Below are positions 10,980-17,581 of a DNA stretch of 25,364 nt, one piece after another. The number at the start of each line of letters is the position of its first letter. The first letter of the stretch is position 1. The notes beneath the pieces were generated by a model. It saw only the letters and a program-made list of their open reading frames with translations, searched no databases and had not been told where the DNA came from. Made by a program: the position numbers and the translations under genes. Origin of the DNA: an uncultured Odoribacter sp. (GTDB lineage Bacteria > Bacteroidota > Bacteroidia > Bacteroidales > Marinifilaceae); the NCBI GenBank assembly GCA_905193145.1, contig CAJJNP010000029.1, forward strand, positions 1 to 25,364, written 5' to 3'.

Positions 10980-11800
10980 GCAAAAGTGTAGTTATAACAG
11001 ATTTGGATGGTACGATTTTGCCTCGTGGAGGTCGGATTAGTGGTGCTGTATTAGATGCATTTCAACGTATCGGCAAGAGTGGAAATGTCCGGATTATCGC
11101 AACAGGGAGGAATCTTTATTCTGCAAGGCAAGTATTGGCTGATGACTTTCCTATTGATTATCTTGTTTTTGCATCTGGTGCTGGTGTGATGCGTTGGAGG
11201 GATAAGAAGATACTGTCTGCATATCATTTATCTGAAAAAGATGCGCATGAAATTGCTCGTTATTTGTGGGATTTTAGCATAAATTTTACAGTTCAACGAG
11301 AAATTCCTAATAATCATTACTATTATTATACAGAGCATTATCCGCAGCATTCTGACTATCTTCGTCGTTTGGAAACATATAAGATGTTTGGTATTCCGAT
11401 ATCTTCACCGGAAGAGATACATGGAGAGATTACGCAGTTTGTTATGATTTTGGATGCAGTGCAATTGCGTCTGATAGAAGATATCCGTATGCAGCTGGCC
11501 GGCTATTCTATTGTGCGTACAACATCTCCTCTAGATAACCGCGCCATCTGGTTGGAGATCTTTGCTAAGGGTGTAAATAAAGGAACTGCTTGTCGTAATT
11601 TATTGGAATGGTTGGGGATTGATTGTGCAAATTGTGTCGGTTTAGGTAACGATTATAATGATGTGGATTTTTTGGATATTTGTGGGCATGCTGCTATTGT
11701 GTCGAATGCTCCTGTACAGTTAAAAGCGTTGTATAAAACCGTAGCATCCGACAGAGAAGATGGTTTTGTAGAGTTTGTAATTAAAAATTTGATGATTTGA
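10976..11800 (+). CDS. HAD-superfamily (Cof-type, class IIB) phosphatase
   Basis: A 274-residue haloacid dehalogenase-type phosphatase. Motif I is DLDGT at 9-13, with nucleophile D9 and general acid D11. Motif II is the Thr of IATGR (40-44). Motif III is a Lys near 198-202 in FAKGVNKG. Motif IV is GLGNDYNDVD at 222-231, which binds Mg2+. The region around residues 85-185 is an inserted cap of the Cof/IIB type, which sets the substrate. The substrate cannot be read from the sequence; sugar phosphates and pyridoxal phosphate are known for relatives. It is coupled to pdxY by the ATGA overlap. Its stop lies only 4 bases from the end of the convergent exbD, with no hairpin between them. Confidence 0.85.
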   Translation: MSKSVVITDLDGTILPRGGRISGAVLDAFQRIGKSGNVRIIATGRNLYSARQVLADDFPIDYLVFASGAGVMRWRDKKILSAYHLSEKDAHEIARYLWDFSINFTVQREIPNNHYYYYTEHYPQHSDYLRRLETYKMFGIPISSPEEIHGEITQFVMILDAVQLRLIEDIRMQLAGYSIVRTTSPLDNRAIWLEIFAKGVNKGTACRNLLEWLGIDCANCVGLGNDYNDVDFLDICGHAAIVSNAPVQLKALYKTVASDREDGFVEFVIKNLMI

Positions 11801-11804
11801 TCTT

Positions 11805-12194
11805 TTATTCTGGGTCTGTGGCTAAAATGGCTTTGTAACCATACGTTTTGGCAATATTCATAACGCGCACAACTTGTTCAATCGGTACCGATTTTTCTGC
11901 TTCAATGGAAACACATGGATCTTCGCTGTTTTTTAATATATCAACGATTTTGCTTTCTAGCTGAGAGAAGGGTGTTACCTTGTGATTCAAGTAGAAAGTC
12001 TGTTTTTTATCTATTGAGACAACCGCAGTTGGTTGGTTGGAAGTTTGATTTGTGCTTTTAGGTAATAGCAGTTTGAGAGCATTGGGGTTGATGAGAGTTG
12101 ATGTTACCATGAAAAAAATCAACAATAGGAAAACAATGTCGGTCATTGACGACATATTGAAATTTGGATTAGCCTTTCTTGCTCGTTTTATCAT
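11805..12194 (-). CDS. exbD: ExbD/TolR biopolymer transport protein
   Basis: This inner-membrane protein partners ExbB in the proton-driven motor that energises TonB-dependent outer-membrane transport, or the related Tol system. It has 129 residues, a normal size. A short cytoplasmic N-terminus is followed by one membrane segment (residues about 17-34). D19 in SMTDIVFLLL is the protonatable Asp of the family. The rest is a periplasmic domain ending in AILATDPE. It begins 12 bases after exbB. The usual third partner, tonB, does not follow: the next gene is the convergent HAD phosphatase 4 bases away. Confidence 0.92.
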   Translation of the reverse strand: MIKRARKANPNFNMSSMTDIVFLLLIFFMVTSTLINPNALKLLLPKSTNQTSNQPTAVVSIDKKQTFYLNHKVTPFSQLESKIVDILKNSEDPCVSIEAEKSVPIEQVVRVMNIAKTYGYKAILATDPE

Positions 12195-12206
12195 GGTCTG
12201 ATGGTT

Positions 12207-12884
12207 TTATTGTTTTTGATCATTTCTGATATCGTATGTGATTTCCATATAATCAGAAAGAGTGCTTTCCATATTATTTACAATCCGGTCAATAATCATA
12301 GTGAGGGTATTGTAAGCAAAGTAAGCAATAATTCCGACAATCAATCCGGCAACAGTGGTAATCATGGCTGTGTAAATACCGCGAGATAACAGGGTGATGT
12401 TAATATTGCTGCCAGCTAGAGCCATATCATAGAAGGCTTGTACCATTCCTACTACAGTTCCTAAAAATCCAATCATTGGAGCCATTCCGGAACATGTAGC
12501 CAAGGTACTTAATCCCTTTTCCATATTAGATACCTCAAGGTTGGCTGCGTTTTCAATGACAGAACGTAGTTCATTTGCTGGCAGTTGTTTGTGTATAATT
12601 CCTTTTATGAGGATTCGTGACATGGGCGTGTTTTCTTCTTTACAAAGATTTATAGCTGCCCGAGAATTGCCGGTAAGCATATGCTCTTTTATTTTTGCAA
12701 TAAATTCTTCATTCTTTTTGATATAATGTCGGAGCAGTAAATAGCGTTCAAAGAAAATATAGACGGCAATAATAGATAATGCGAAAATGGGAATCATCAG
12801 CCATCCGCCCTTCACAATCATGCCCCAAATGCTTAGACCTGGTTCGTTTGTTGCTGTTTCTGCCAATAGTATTAATGTATTCAT
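12207..12884 (-). CDS. exbB: ExbB/TolQ/MotA-family proton channel protein
   Basis: The pentameric channel subunit of the ExbB-ExbD motor. It has 225 residues and three predicted membrane segments, at about 20-45, 128-152 and 168-195. The conserved GFLGTVVGMVQAF precedes the last helix, and TTVAGLIVGIIAYF forms it. It is first in the exbB-exbD pair. Divergent from it, two genes away, is a TonB-dependent receptor that could be one client; a general role for all receptors of the cell is at least as likely. TolQ is an alternative family name, but no tol/pal genes are seen. Confidence 0.93.
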   Translation of the reverse strand: MNTLILLAETATNEPGLSIWGMIVKGGWLMIPIFALSIIAVYIFFERYLLLRHYIKKNEEFIAKIKEHMLTGNSRAAINLCKEENTPMSRILIKGIIHKQLPANELRSVIENAANLEVSNMEKGLSTLATCSGMAPMIGFLGTVVGMVQAFYDMALAGSNINITLLSRGIYTAMITTVAGLIVGIIAYFAYNTLTMIIDRIVNNMESTLSDYMEITYDIRNDQKQ

Positions 12885-12997: not shown

Positions 12998-13912
12998 TTA
13001 GTGTTTGATTTGTTTGAGATATTGGTCTGTATTTTTAATATTAAGTGTGAAATTTAAAAATCTTTGAGCATATGGGTCGGGCTCTCCTTGGCGATGAATG
13101 GCATGAAATACTCGTTCGATGCTAAGTCCTTGGGTTTCAATGATGCGTAATTGTTTATCTTTAAGCTCTTGGTATATGCTATGTATGGAAAGAAATGCCA
13201 GGCAGTCAGAATATTGAATATACTGTTTAATGCCTTCAGTTGTTCCTAAAATCAGTTGGGCATTTAGGGTGTTAATGGGAATATTGGATGCTGCTAATTG
13301 TTTTTTTATAACGTGGTAAGTTCCTGATCCTTTTTCCCGGAAAACAAAATTGTAATTGCTCAATTCTTCTTTGTTTATTGTTTCCGGAATATTACTATTG
13401 GCCGCACATACTAATACTATTTCATCTTTTAAGAAAGGTATGTAATGAATGTCTGGTTGTGAAGGTGTTCCTTCAATGAAGGCTAGATGAAGTTCGTCAT
13501 TTAGTATTGCTTGTTCGATTTGTTGTGTATTGCCGCTTATGAGATCTATGGAAATCCCTGTATGTTGATTGTTAAAGCGTGCTAATATTGAAGGGAGGAT
13601 GTATTGGGATAACGTTGTGCTGGCTCCTAAACGAAGAATCCCTTGAAAATTTCCTCGTATTTGGTCTAGTTTGAATTGTATTTTGCGTTCTTGTTTCAGT
13701 ATTGCTTCTGTTTCTTCATAGAGATATCTCCCGGCTTCTGTGATTTGCATTCTGCCTTTAATGCGATGAAAAAGAGTAATTCCCAATTCTTTTTCTAATT
13801 CTTTTATACTTTTTGAAATGGCCGGTTGAGAGAGAAGTAGCTCTTCTGCGACACGGGTGGTGTTTGGGTTGCGGGCCAAATGGCAAAATACAAGGTATTT
13901 GTGATCAAGCAT
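12998..13912 (-). CDS. LysR-family transcriptional regulator
   Basis: A 304-residue LysR-type regulator. The N-terminal winged helix-turn-helix is clear (residues about 1-60: SQPAISKSIKELEKELGITLFHR). It is followed by a linker helix and a type 2 periplasmic-binding-like effector domain (about 90-295). It is divergent from the cobalamin-riboswitch operon: its ATG is 66 bases from the -7 box of that promoter, so the shared region may hold its operator. LysR proteins often regulate the divergent neighbour, but here the neighbour already has a riboswitch, so its target is uncertain. Its own promoter is weak (TTAATTTG on the minus strand, 13935-13942). The ligand is unknown. Confidence 0.92.
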   Translation of the reverse strand: MLDHKYLVFCHLARNPNTTRVAEELLLSQPAISKSIKELEKELGITLFHRIKGRMQITEAGRYLYEETEAILKQERKIQFKLDQIRGNFQGILRLGASTTLSQYILPSILARFNNQHTGISIDLISGNTQQIEQAILNDELHLAFIEGTPSQPDIHYIPFLKDEIVLVCAANSNIPETINKEELSNYNFVFREKGSGTYHVIKKQLAASNIPINTLNAQLILGTTEGIKQYIQYSDCLAFLSIHSIYQELKDKQLRIIETQGLSIERVFHAIHRQGEPDPYAQRFLNFTLNIKNTDQYLKQIKH

Positions 13913-13952: not shown

Positions 13953-13986
13953 TTTGGATAAACAAGATAAATGTTTTCTATATTTG
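13953..13986 (+). promoter_or_regulatory. Promoter of the cobalamin-riboswitch operon
   Basis: TTTG (13953-13956) and TATATTTG (13979-13986) form a -33/-7 pair with a 22-base spacer, or 21 bases if TTGG is counted as the -33 box. Transcription would begin a few bases before the aptamer, so the whole riboswitch lies in the 5' leader. Confidence 0.75.
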
Positions 13987-13993
13987 CGGCTGA

Positions 13994-14177
13994 AATTGGT
14001 AATCAGAGGAAGTTTCTTTCCCCTGATGCAAGGGAATCCGGTGTAAAACCGGAGCTGTACCTGCAGCTGTAATCCTCATTTCAAAATATCTGTAACTACA
14101 GAGCCACTGTTGTTTGAAAGACAACGGGAAGGTATACAGATAGAGGAAAGCCAGAAGACCTGCCAGTTATCACAATT
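13994..14177 (+). ncRNA. Cobalamin (B12) riboswitch aptamer
   Basis: This leader RNA binds adenosylcobalamin or a related corrinoid and normally lowers expression when it is bound. The core is clear: GCAAGGGAATCCGGTG at 14028-14043, then AAAACCGGAGCTG, the conserved GCCACTG at 14103-14109, GGGAAGG at 14126-14132, and the B12 box AGCCAGAAGACCTGCC at 14149-14164. A possible closing P1 helix pairs 13994-14004 with 14166-14177, with bulges. The ends are therefore approximate. It lies directly after a promoter and before a btuB-like gene, the standard context. Confidence 0.95.
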
Positions 14178-14181
14178 GTGA

Positions 14182-14258
14182 GTACGTAGCTTCCAGGAAT
14201 AGAGGCATAGTCACTTATATTTTATGAAATAGGTGTATATCTTTTTGAAGCTACGTGC
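14182..14258 (+). promoter_or_regulatory. Riboswitch expression platform: nested hairpin
   Basis: A 12-bp stem pairs 14182-14193 with 14247-14258. It has one G-U pair and a perfect 10-bp core (ACGTAGCTTC with GAAGCTACGT). Inside its 53-base loop a second 7-bp stem pairs 14212-14218 with 14229-14235. The T-rich tttgattttt follows at 14261-14270. This may be a terminator-like switch element; the long loop makes the mechanism uncertain. Confidence 0.6.
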
Positions 14259-14300
14259 AGTTTGATTTTTATGTTGAATAAACAAAAATTTAACAGATAG

Positions 14301-16370
14301 ATGAAATGCAAGTATTGGCTGTGTGCATTATTTGTGCTTATAGAACAGACACTTGTTGCGCAGAGTGTGTTGAAAAACAAGAATGAAAAAGAGCTTTCTT
14401 TATTGCTGAATGAAGTGGTTGTGACTGGTACTGGCACAGTGCATTATCTTAAGGATGTGCCTGTACAGACAGAGATTATTCAAGGTAAGGCATTGGAGAG
14501 TTACCAAGGGCGTAGCATTGAGGATATGTTGCAGGGATTGATGCCATCCATAACATTTAATATGAATGATATGGGCAGTCATATTCAAATGAATGGTTTG
14601 GGGAATGACTATGTTTTGATTTTGGTAAATGGTAAGCGGATGAATGGTAATATCGGTGGTCAAAATGATTTGAATATGATTAATACCGATAATATTGAGC
14701 GAATCGAAGTTATTAAAGGAGCTGCATCTTCATTGTATGGGTCTGACGCAATTGCAGGAGTTATCAATATTATTACTAAAAAATACAGAGAAAAAATCAA
14801 TGTGTCCAATACGACGCGTGTGGGTGCCCATGGCGATATCTCTCAATGGAATATATTAGCTATCAATGGGAAATACTTTAGCTCTTCTACAACTTTTCAA
14901 TATAAACATACAGATGGGTGGCGGAATACAGACCGGGAATTGGATCACCATGAAATATGGACAGGTTCTGTGACTAAAACAGTTAATCGGAGTACAAATT
15001 ATACTTTTAACGAATATCTCACTTATAAAGCTAACCGTCGCTTGGACCTGTCAGCTGAAGGCTCCTTGTATCAACGTTGGAACTATCGGTTGACGGGTCC
15101 ATATAAGTATTATCGTTATAATCAATCGTATCGTAACTTTGATGTGGCGGGTGGAGCTCGTTATGCGTTGAATCATCAGAATTATCTAAAAATGGATATT
15201 TCTTTCGGATGTTATAATTATTATTATGATTATACCCAACAGGAAAATACTGATTTTTATACGCAAGAGGGGAAACGTATTACTCGTTATCCCGGAGAAC
15301 ATATTCTTCAAAGTTCGCAGCAACGCACTTTGGGAAAAATCCAAGGGGTATTTTTATTAGGGGAATACCATACTTTAAATACCGGACTGGAATGCCAGTA
15401 TGATTATTTGAAATCTCCTCACCGTATTCAGGGGGATGTGGCATCTGTATATACACTGGCTGCTTATGTGCAAGATGAGTGGAATATGACAGAGCTGTTA
15501 AATTTGACTTATGGTGTGCGTCTGACCGGGCATAAAGAGTTTGGATTACATGTTACACCCAAGGTGTCGGCTATGTGTAAATTAGAACATTGGATTTTTC
15601 GCTTGGGGTATTCTATGGGGTTCAAAACTCCCACGTTGAAAGAATTGTATGATAACTACATTACAACCATTGGTGGTGGTAGATTGAAACATTACTATGG
15701 CAACTGTGATTTGAAGCCTCAAAAATCTCATTATGTATCTGTCGGGATCGAATATAATATACTGAAATTGAGGTTTATGGTAAATGGGTATTATAATCAT
15801 ATCCGGGATATGATTGATTTGGTAGAAACAATAACGACTCCAGAAGATCGTTTGAATGAAGTGCAGGGGAGTATGAAATATGAAAACTTGTCCAAAGCAC
15901 GTACTTTTGGATGTGATGTGACAGTGACGTATGATATTATGCCGTCTTTGTCGATGGATGGCGGTTATAGTTACAACAATGCCAAAGCGCAATATACGGA
16001 TGAGCCGGATTCTAAAGATTATATGAGATATTTGCCTATTGATGGAACGGCATATCATAATGCCACATGGAAAGCAGAATGGAAGCGTATCTGGAAAAAT
16101 TATCGGCTTGCTATCAGTTTGTTTGGACGCTATCAATCGCAGAGACATTATATTCAAGATGGAGATGCGAAACCTCACCAAATATGGAGGTTGAATACAT
16201 GTCACTCTTTGATGGGGTGTAAAAGATGGAAAGTAGATGTACATCTTGGTGTTGATAATCTTTTTGACTATGTTGATCGAACTCCCTTTGGATATCATCG
16301 TTCAACATCTTCTCCTGGACGTACCTTTTATGTTTCGTGTGTATTAAAATATCAAAATAATCGCAAATGA
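14301..16370 (+). CDS. btuB: BtuB-like TonB-dependent outer-membrane receptor
   Basis: A TonB-dependent receptor of 689 residues, predicted to import cobalamin or another corrinoid across the outer membrane. A signal peptide (residues 1-20, cleavage after LVA) is followed by a TonB box, EVVVTGT at 38-44. The plug domain (about 50-160) contains IERIEVIKGAASSLYGSDA at 132-150, typical of the family. The remaining 530 residues form the beta-barrel, rich in aromatic residues. The B12 riboswitch immediately upstream is the main reason for assigning a corrinoid substrate; sequence alone would also allow haem, as in IhtA of Porphyromonas gingivalis. It is not a SusC-type receptor: it is shorter, and no SusD gene follows. 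It is followed after 54 bases by a chelatase-like lipoprotein in the same operon. Confidence 0.88.
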   Translation: MKCKYWLCALFVLIEQTLVAQSVLKNKNEKELSLLLNEVVVTGTGTVHYLKDVPVQTEIIQGKALESYQGRSIEDMLQGLMPSITFNMNDMGSHIQMNGLGNDYVLILVNGKRMNGNIGGQNDLNMINTDNIERIEVIKGAASSLYGSDAIAGVINIITKKYREKINVSNTTRVGAHGDISQWNILAINGKYFSSSTTFQYKHTDGWRNTDRELDHHEIWTGSVTKTVNRSTNYTFNEYLTYKANRRLDLSAEGSLYQRWNYRLTGPYKYYRYNQSYRNFDVAGGARYALNHQNYLKMDISFGCYNYYYDYTQQENTDFYTQEGKRITRYPGEHILQSSQQRTLGKIQGVFLLGEYHTLNTGLECQYDYLKSPHRIQGDVASVYTLAAYVQDEWNMTELLNLTYGVRLTGHKEFGLHVTPKVSAMCKLEHWIFRLGYSMGFKTPTLKELYDNYITTIGGGRLKHYYGNCDLKPQKSHYVSVGIEYNILKLRFMVNGYYNHIRDMIDLVETITTPEDRLNEVQGSMKYENLSKARTFGCDVTVTYDIMPSLSMDGGYSYNNAKAQYTDEPDSKDYMRYLPIDGTAYHNATWKAEWKRIWKNYRLAISLFGRYQSQRHYIQDGDAKPHQIWRLNTCHSLMGCKRWKVDVHLGVDNLFDYVDRTPFGYHRSTSSPGRTFYVSCVLKYQNNRK

Positions 16371-16424
16371 AAGGAGATCTGATAAGAGATTTTCTTAGAG
16401 TATTAATTTAAAAATTAAAGCAAA

Positions 16425-17513
16425 ATGAAGAAAATGATGAATTGGATGGCTATGGCCATGTTATTTGTTTGTCCACTTTTTACTTCTTGTGATGATGGTG
16501 ATGATGATAACACGACTAATCCGGTAGAAAAAAGTGTCGTTGCCAATAAAAAAAGCGACAAGGCAATGCTGTTATGTACATTTGGAAGTACTTATCAGGA
16601 ATCAATTAAAACGTATGATGCTGTGATGTCTGATTTTAAAAAAGCATTTCCTGATTATGATATTTACTTGTCTTTCACTTCGGCTACTTGTGTTAATCGG
16701 GTTTTGGCTGCAACTGGTATTGAACGTCACGGACCGTCAGATTGGTTATCTGCTTTTGGTAATGCAGGTTATAAGAAGGTGGCTGTGCAGTCTTTACATG
16801 TGATTCCTGGTGAGGAATATTTGAGTCTGATGAACACGAAAGTGAAAAAAGATTTCATGATTGAGGGGTTTCCGAAAGTGGAGGTTGCTAAAGGAGCTTG
16901 TTTGTTGGAGACAGATGATGATATCAAGGTTGTTGGCGGCATACTTTTGGATGCTTATAAAGATGTATTAAAGGACCCAAAGAATATCGTGCTTTTTATG
17001 GGGCATGGTAATCCGGAAGATTCTTATAGCCATGCAAATGATCAATATTCCAATTTGGAAAAAGCAATGCAGGTAAAAACTGCCGGAAAGAATAATGTAT
17101 TTGTAGGAACGGTAGATTATGGTGATATGCTTTTCTTTGAGGAAGGAAGTGAAGAGTGCATATATGCTAAATTAAAAGCTTATGAAAAAGCTACTGGTTA
17201 TAAAGCATCGGATATTACCATTTATTTGGCACCGCTTATGTCAATTGCAGGAGATCATGCACATAATGATATGTGGGGACTGGAAGAGGGAGATGATTTT
17301 AGTCAAGCAGTTCCGCAGGGAGAAGCTTGTTGGAGATTGAAGTTGAAAAAAATGGGATATAATATAAATGAAAAAGAAAGTCATCATGGATCGGTTGATG
17401 CTTGTACAATAAAAGGTCTAGGCGATTATGCTGGAATCCGTCAAGTGTGGCTGAAACATATGCAAGAGCAGATTAATGCAGGTAATTGGGCTACTGGAGA
17501 AGATTATCAATAA
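16425..17513 (+). CDS. cbiK: CbiK-type cobaltochelatase-like lipoprotein (IhtB/FetB type)
   Basis: A 362-residue protein. Its body matches anaerobic cobalt chelatase CbiK, which inserts Co2+ into sirohydrochlorin, but it carries a lipoprotein signal. The lipobox LFTSC places the lipidated Cys at 22, and CDDGDDD after it resembles the acidic surface-export signal of Bacteroidota lipoproteins. The chelatase domain starts near residue 46 (AMLLCTFGSTYQES). The two histidines expected at the active site are present: H194 in FMGHG and H278 in AGDHAHND. The position of the CbiK acidic ligand is probably D231 in VGTVDYG. The outer-membrane haemin-binding lipoprotein IhtB/FetB of Porphyromonas gingivalis has the same architecture beside a TonB receptor. 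Here the gene shares an operon and B12 riboswitch with btuB, so a role on corrinoids or precursors is favoured. Whether it inserts, removes or only binds metal tetrapyrroles is unknown. Confidence 0.85.
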   Translation: MKKMMNWMAMAMLFVCPLFTSCDDGDDDNTTNPVEKSVVANKKSDKAMLLCTFGSTYQESIKTYDAVMSDFKKAFPDYDIYLSFTSATCVNRVLAATGIERHGPSDWLSAFGNAGYKKVAVQSLHVIPGEEYLSLMNTKVKKDFMIEGFPKVEVAKGACLLETDDDIKVVGGILLDAYKDVLKDPKNIVLFMGHGNPEDSYSHANDQYSNLEKAMQVKTAGKNNVFVGTVDYGDMLFFEEGSEECIYAKLKAYEKATGYKASDITIYLAPLMSIAGDHAHNDMWGLEEGDDFSQAVPQGEACWRLKLKKMGYNINEKESHHGSVDACTIKGLGDYAGIRQVWLKHMQEQINAGNWATGEDYQ

Positions 17514-17534
17514 TAAAATTGATTATATATTTGA

Positions 17535-17581
17535 AGAATGCAGCCTAGAGAGCATTGGCTTGAGGGTTGCATTCTCTTTTT
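17535..17581 (+). terminator. Terminator of the btuB-cbiK operon
   Basis: An 11-bp stem pairs 17535-17545 with 17565-17575, including one G-U pair, and is followed by CTTTTT (17576-17581). It lies 21 bases after the chelatase stop and closes the riboswitch operon before the V-ATPase promoter. Confidence 0.85.

Follow-up and report, generated by a model that had tools for sequence, protein, structure and literature searches.

A riboswitch-controlled TonB-dependent receptor and CbiK-family lipoprotein as a candidate module for tetrapyrrole-precursor acquisition in Bacteroidales

Introduction

In Bacteroides, the BtuB-BtuG and BtuH/BtuJ/BtuK loci combine a cobalamin riboswitch with a TonB-dependent receptor and a surface lipoprotein partner. 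The chelatase CbiK goes unmentioned in the available portions of four papers on B12 uptake in this genus (PMC12751083, PMC8941943, PMC10404256, PMC6143338), and an excerpt of PMC6593275 lists it as a synthesis enzyme. Here we consider a 25,364-nucleotide stretch of DNA from an uncultured Odoribacter sp. (contig CAJJNP010000029.1; hereafter the window), a Bacteroidales-type chromosome segment. Its positions 13953-17581 hold one self-contained unit that opens with a Bacteroides-type promoter and a cobalamin riboswitch, encodes a TonB-dependent receptor followed by a CbiK-family lipoprotein, and closes with a terminator.

A related pair is known from Porphyromonas gingivalis, where FetB/IhtB and IhtA are read in the literature as a haem, iron or manganese system. 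FetB has been described as a manganese chelatase acting on protoporphyrin (PMC13402209), and IhtB has been called a putative ferrochelatase or reverse ferrochelatase (PMC13227078). Iht comprises a receptor, a lipoprotein, a binding protein, a permease and an ATPase, and the ihtB transcript changed about twofold or less, not significantly, under iron and haem limitation (PMC10913741). This arrangement, from receptor to ATPase, is much like the setting of the unit described here.

Roper et al. are said to have used the word enigma in 2000 for the way in which P. gingivalis makes cobalamin. Tetrapyrrole precursor salvagers have since been defined as a class, mostly of Firmicutes, in a source that also reports P. 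gingivalis to be without the steps to precorrin-2 (Shelton et al. 2019, PMC6461909). A rumen genome with corrin genes and none of the early ones is described in PMC12654859, whose available text proposes no receptor for it; the cobaltochelatase of another genome in that paper is said to transport sirohydrochlorin and to join cobalt to it, with reference to a 2008 paper on CbiK of Desulfovibrio vulgaris. Our search of the open-licence literature, which mostly left subscription journals uncovered, returned no paper proposing a sirohydrochlorin importer in Bacteroidales.

Based on gene content, motifs and genomic linkage, we suggest, with a probability of roughly 0.6, that the unit is a module for the acquisition of a tetrapyrrole precursor (sirohydrochlorin or a metal form of it) for B12 synthesis. 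Its parts, namely the riboswitch, the receptor with a surface lipoprotein and the CbiK fold, are known; the proposed role is new.

Results

The CbiK-family lipoprotein (362 amino acids; 16425-17513, plus strand, as are all features of the unit) passes the Pfam cut-off for PF06180 (E 2.2e-42) and has the class II chelatase fold. Its lipobox cysteine, Cys22 (16488-16490), is followed by DDGDDD, resembling the acidic stretch that we take to be the surface-export signal of Bacteroidota lipoproteins. In an alignment of 119 rows (the window protein and its relatives, some of them duplicates), the cysteine has a counterpart at the matching place in 118. Two or more acidic residues follow it in 97 of 109 distinct lipoprotein relatives with a lipobox, compared with 1 of 36 BtuF-type lipoproteins; the count used the first lipobox match, which probably made it too low in five or more of the twelve low rows (L009-L012 and L117 among them) and may have done so in the BtuF control as well. 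These signals point to a location on the cell surface.

The metal site is partly canonical. Asp231 (17115-17117) occupies, in all 119 rows, the place of Glu175 of Salmonella CbiK, which we take to be the canonical metal-site glutamate, and in this residue the window protein departs from CbiK. Alignment also identifies the active-site residues His194 (17004-17006) and His278 (17256-17258), both invariant in the 119 rows and equivalent to His145 and His207 of Salmonella CbiK, the pair named as catalytic in PMC7689651.

Conservation was followed in two sets of loci, from genomes that include many draft or metagenome assemblies (the P. vulgatus ATCC 8482 sequence is titled complete). The first set was selected for resemblance to the CbiK lipoprotein, with no regard to riboswitches; its 78 loci were kept from the best 80 of at least 556 confirmed matches and lean to close relatives. 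The second comes from 151 genomes drawn evenly across the P. vulgatus family; 46 of these are carriers, and 40 carrier loci were examined, eight of them shared with the first set. The six other carriers are G009 and G002 (both in the first set), G101, G298, G214 and G341 (contig begins inside the gene).

In 71 of the 78 loci the receptor and CbiK genes have a cobalamin-riboswitch motif ahead of them, on the same strand and within 6 kb; the motif also precedes the pair in 39 of the 40 family loci, the exception (L138) being truncated. In 75/78 and 39/40 loci, CbiK directly follows (within 400 bases) a relative of the window receptor. The seven misses of the first set are four loci at contig ends (L015, L026, L033, L049) and three of Porphyromonas (L023, L025, L027); the L033 protein recurs in L120, on a fuller contig with the riboswitch present. 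In L027 a riboswitch motif is found downstream of the pair, at 11776-11840. Given that the linkage recurs in two locus sets, and that the motif search gave 3 matches in 2.42 Mb of reversed sequence, we rejected a chance or artefactual origin. The unit is widely conserved in Bacteroidales. An earlier note on this DNA had described the five elements as a single unit and had called for a survey of riboswitch linkage among homologues; the unit is confirmed, with its order recurring in the 71 and 39 loci above, and the linkage holds except in the three Porphyromonas loci and those cut by contig ends.

The unit goes together with corrin-ring synthesis. Gene counts here and below were made by tblastn with one to three references each and are lower bounds. 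CbiD was found in all 40 carrier genomes chosen from the 78 loci of the first set. In the family sample it was present in 44 of 46 carriers versus 11 of 105 non-carriers (Fisher p 4e-25, uncorrected for shared ancestry). The two carriers scored as CbiD-negative are G341, in which a contig end interrupts a CbiJ-CbiD match (L173), and G228, an unexplained case. A wider sample of the order contained the gene in 4 of 159 genomes (E 1e-50), all four with CbiD, which was seen in 13 of the 159 overall; two of the four (G008 and G009) were already in the first set. In 72 of 110 loci the same examined stretch holds one or more corrin-ring genes.

Some arrangements are closer still. On one strand of Bacteroides pyogenes (L084:12738-18854) a receptor, a CbiL-type gene, a window-type receptor and CbiK follow one another, and CbiL overlaps the second receptor by four bases, which unusually links a methyltransferase of the cytoplasm to genes for outer-membrane import. 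The B. pyogenes CbiL scores 156.9 bits; all three CbiL genes tested fall in the range 150-157 bits, slightly short of the 163-bit cut-off. CbiK is followed by CbiL in L146 and L148. CbiL acts after cobalt insertion (PMC8123684). P. vulgatus ATCC 8482 holds CbiL (by BLAST), CbiHC, CbiET, CbiGF, CbiJD and CbiA, and this species has a separate operon of receptor, lipoprotein and BtuFCD-type genes behind another riboswitch.

Three further observations concern the surroundings of such clusters. P. vulgatus has two divergent cobalamin riboswitches about 100 bases apart (L009:13922-14438), and the flanking genes give the impression, by their N-termini only, of a biotin carboxylase-like and an anaerobic ribonucleotide reductase-like protein. 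L169:628-10597 and L171:1277-10878, which have no lipoprotein, show an alternative layout of riboswitch, exported CbiK, receptor and then corrin genes. In Dysgonomonas mossii a PepSY-TM protein (PF03929; L087:275-1777) lies between an exported CbiK and corrin genes, with a relative near the cluster in L164 and L169, and is a possible candidate reductase for the metal or the ring.

The early tetrapyrrole steps, for which HemC, CobA and SirC-type genes served as markers in the 40 carriers, are mostly missing. By tblastn HemC was not found in 35 of the 40 genomes (present in five), and CobA (uroporphyrinogen methyltransferase) above a 185-bit cut-off was likewise not found in 35 and present in five; 34 genomes lack matches to both, and a strong precorrin-2 dehydrogenase-type match occurs in four. 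The sensitivity of these searches seems reasonable, since HemC was found in 11 of 14 control genomes and CobA above the cut-off in 11 of 14; one control, Bacteroides ihuae, has CbiD and no HemC match. We also considered whether CobA might be hidden among other methyltransferases. In the 35 genomes the best match reached 81.7 to 131.9 bits, with none in G007, all under 185 bits, and in P. vulgatus the best match of the CobA search is the CbiF part of a CbiG-CbiF fusion. Weak PF13241 matches (20-29 bits, in most of the 40 genomes) were judged to be general Rossmann matches; that family was found in 14/14 controls.

Carrier genomes thus seem mostly unable to make the ring that starts the corrin pathway, and by three markers (CbiD present, HemC and CobA mostly absent) the relatives are tetrapyrrole precursor salvagers. 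A corrin pathway without HemC and CobA implies that the precursor must come from outside, and the natural point of entry for a pathway without its early steps would be CbiK's substrate, sirohydrochlorin, as such or in a metal form.

The same link could be read as one to cobalt and not to the ring: the lipoprotein would be a surface binder of Co(II) or of a cobalt chelate, which the receptor would import for corrin synthesis. The invariant His-Asp-His site and the tie to CbiD agree with this, and corrin-ring synthesis needs cobalt. However, cobalt uptake leaves unexplained both why a tetrapyrrole-chelatase fold was retained and where genomes without HemC and CobA obtain the ring, and we consider it the least probable of the explanations weighed here.

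Most carriers have a second CbiK. In the 20 checked, mostly the best-scoring ones, all N-termini look exported (18 signal-peptide-like and two with a lipobox, by hydropathy and by eye), and four more CbiKs, from non-carrier genomes, are signal-peptide-like. The second CbiK keeps the canonical His-Glu-His site, with Glu in 20/20, and forms its own clade in the tree. A separate CbiX was not seen in 39 of 40 carrier genomes by a PF01903 search, which did not extend to the HemH and CobN/BtuS families; a hidden cytoplasmic chelatase was considered and set aside, as PF01903 matches coincide with the second-CbiK genes in all genomes but G037. In P. vulgatus ATCC 8482 the lipoprotein is the only CbiK/CbiX-type chelatase found. 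From the export-like N-termini of the second CbiKs checked, the near absence of separate CbiX matches and the finding of the lipoprotein CbiK alone in P. vulgatus, cobalt seems to be inserted outside the cytoplasm; this boldest step of our proposal depends on missing matches.

The receptor (689 amino acids; 14301-16370) has Plug and barrel domains. It scores 127.6 bits against the BtuB vitamin B12 receptor equivalog TIGR01779 (cut-off 599.7) and 134.3 and 134.8 bits against the haem models TIGR01785 and TIGR01786 (cut-offs 316.85 and 323.75). Scores are about equal for B12, haem and Cir-type models and fall below the curated cut-off of every NCBIfam model matched, siderophore models included. 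In structure comparison of the receptor model BtuB and Cir are tied, and so structure does not decide the ligand. With the sequence cut-offs missed, we rejected a plain BtuB, and the 'BtuB-like' label given in the earlier note is too specific. In an alignment of relatives no conserved histidine was found in receptor region 437-481, presumably the place where haem receptors carry a conserved His motif.

Capture of corrinoids is one use that such a receptor could serve: it would import cobamides or cobinamide, and the CbiK lipoprotein would be a corrinoid-binding accessory like BtuG, BtuH, BtuJ or BtuK, with the chelatase fold reused. The cobalamin riboswitch at the head of the unit and the structural tie of BtuB with Cir are in keeping with this, as are operons of B. 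theta under like regulation that encode cobalamin-binding lipoproteins (PMC12751083, PMC8941943). However, the unit tracks CbiD although 96% of Bacteroidetes are reported to use cobamides (PMC6461909), P. vulgatus has its separate operon with BtuFCD-type genes, invariant metal-site histidines would be needless in a corrinoid binder, and the receptor lies far under the BtuB equivalog cut-off. We regard corrinoid capture as unlikely.

Acquisition of haem or porphyrin, as proposed for IhtAB/FetB of P. gingivalis, would have the lipoprotein bind haem or exchange its metal and the receptor import haem or iron. The chelatase activity reported for FetB (PMC13402209) and the ferrochelatase proposal for IhtB (PMC13227078) keep this explanation alive. 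It has to contend with the riboswitch control and the corrin clusters, with the missing histidine in the receptor region, and with the FetB fragment (a single row), which branches outside the Asp-type lipoprotein clade as its sister on a long branch. In addition, Fur is reported not to regulate IhtB (PMC10913741), and unpublished data quoted in PMC6460266 have haem-iron use unaffected in B. fragilis after the loss by disruption of cbiK gene BF638R_2502, a possible orthologue of the lipoprotein gene. The B. fragilis operon BF638R_2501-2512 holds the CobN-like BtuS1 (PMC6460266). Haem acquisition seems to us quite improbable for this unit.

The aptamer (RF00174; 13980-14181) was found by cmscan at 84.5 bits (E 8.8e-20; gathering score 31.5 bits), covers model positions 1-189 of 189 and is the sole Rfam match across the window at gathering thresholds. 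Upstream, a pattern search finds TTTG-N22-TATATTTG at 13953-13986, a match to the Bacteroides-type promoter consensus; sigma-70 promoter matches from the pattern scan were at chance level. The leader between the aptamer and the first start codon (14182-14300) contains a predicted 12-pair hairpin that is a possible expression platform; the fold of 13986-14310, aptamer included, has -98.4 kcal/mol, with a z of -4.95 for the entire stretch. An intrinsic terminator, hairpin and T-run, closes the unit at 17535-17581 (-24.8 kcal/mol, z -4.14, 1/200 shuffles as good); a separate terminator pattern scan limited to loops of 3-8 bases did not list it. A phage or mobile origin of the unit was considered, and the viral_contigs scan, whose reach is close relatives only, gave none.

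Divergent from the unit is a LysR-type regulator gene (12998-13912, minus strand), which scores 216.8 bits against a selenium-metabolism LysR model, below the cut-off of 250. Just downstream of it lies an ExbB/TolQ-like and ExbD/TolR-like pair (11805-12884, minus strand), which might energise the receptor.

Discussion

We favour a cobalt-free precursor as the ligand over B12 capture or haem. In this scenario, low cobalamin would permit expression of the operon, as is the behaviour of this riboswitch class. The surface CbiK lipoprotein would bind what other organisms release, be it sirohydrochlorin, sirohaem or cobalt-sirohydrochlorin, may load or exchange the metal of the ring, and would hand the ring to the adjacent TonB-dependent receptor for import. 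The second, exported CbiK, where present, could complete cobalt loading, and a BtuFCD-type transporter could carry cobalt-sirohydrochlorin into the cytoplasm, where CbiL and the remaining corrin enzymes would take over. We infer the identity of the ligand, the catalysis at the surface, the handover and the inner-membrane route, and we expect the window's own genome to follow its relatives in gene content. A stronger version, which we put forward tentatively, is that the lipoprotein itself pulls iron from sirohaem or loads cobalt and that the receptor imports cobalt-sirohydrochlorin, which would make the first committed step of B12 synthesis extracellular.

The earlier note had the lipoprotein act at the cell surface on corrinoids or cobalt-free precursors, whether by loading cobalt, stripping metal or simple capture. 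The link to B12 and not to haem, the surface signals and the cobalt-free precursor option stand; capture of finished corrinoids, or removal of their metal, is less supported. The separate BtuFCD-type operon of P. vulgatus and the tracking of corrin-ring genes by the unit speak against capture, and the chemistry makes it implausible that cobalt could be taken out of a corrin ring.

Several observations weigh against precursor acquisition. Asp in place of the canonical Glu means that the lipoprotein may bind rather than catalyse, and against the sirohydrochlorin cobaltochelatase equivalog NF047852 it scores 97.2 bits, far under the 400-bit cut-off. The marker search covered HemC, CobA and SirC-type genes, and the chelatase search the CbiK and CbiX families. 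Of the 151 family members, 5 have HemC, and CbiD was found in one of these; a missing HemC is therefore as much a trait of the family as of the module, and what matters is that a corrin pathway is kept without it. Genomes G016, G025, G029 and G030 have HemC, CobA and a SirC-type match, so that the module is not strictly tied to loss; by gene content these four keep both routes. Among CbiD-positive Bacteroidaceae, 11 of 55 are without the lipoprotein (E 1e-40), four of these 11 with an exported CbiK within 20 kb around CbiD and seven with none in that stretch. In two of the four (L169 and L171) this CbiK stands immediately after a riboswitch in the corrin operon. The three Porphyromonas loci keep the receptor-CbiK pair without an upstream riboswitch motif, which suggests that regulation of the pair has shifted in some members of the genus. 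The window itself gave no tblastn match to the corrin-gene references used, in agreement with the earlier note, which had seen no other cobalamin synthesis gene there. Free sirohydrochlorin in the gut is an assumption on our part, and Bacteroidetes are reported to have the highest relative share of cobinamide salvagers (PMC6461909).

The unit is a concrete candidate for the importer that precursor salvage and the P. gingivalis enigma call for, and one that common gut genera carry. If precursor acquisition is correct, their production of B12 in the gut would depend on a cross-fed tetrapyrrole intermediate, and cobalt chelation could sit outside the cytoplasm. Prototroph calls made by counting corrin genes would need revision, for example that of Bacteroides vulgatus in a table reproduced in PMC8123684. 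The Iht/FetB system of P. gingivalis would merit re-examination with sirohydrochlorin.

The unit can be compared with several known systems. Like the precursor salvagers defined by Shelton et al. (2019), and like P. gingivalis with its enigma, its carriers have a corrin pathway without early steps, for which the available text of PMC6461909 names no importer. FetB/IhtB-IhtA of P. gingivalis (PDB 9b86) has the canonical Glu at the metal site where the window protein has Asp. The periplasmic CbiK of D. vulgaris (PDB 2xvx, 2xvz) has 269 amino acids, compared with 362 and insertions in the window protein, which moreover is a lipoprotein, is paired with a receptor, stands under a cobalamin riboswitch and has Asp at the place of the Salmonella CbiK Glu. 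The Btu loci of Bacteroides share the riboswitch, the TonB-dependent receptor and a surface lipoprotein partner, but here the partner belongs to a chelatase family and is linked to synthesis of the corrin ring.

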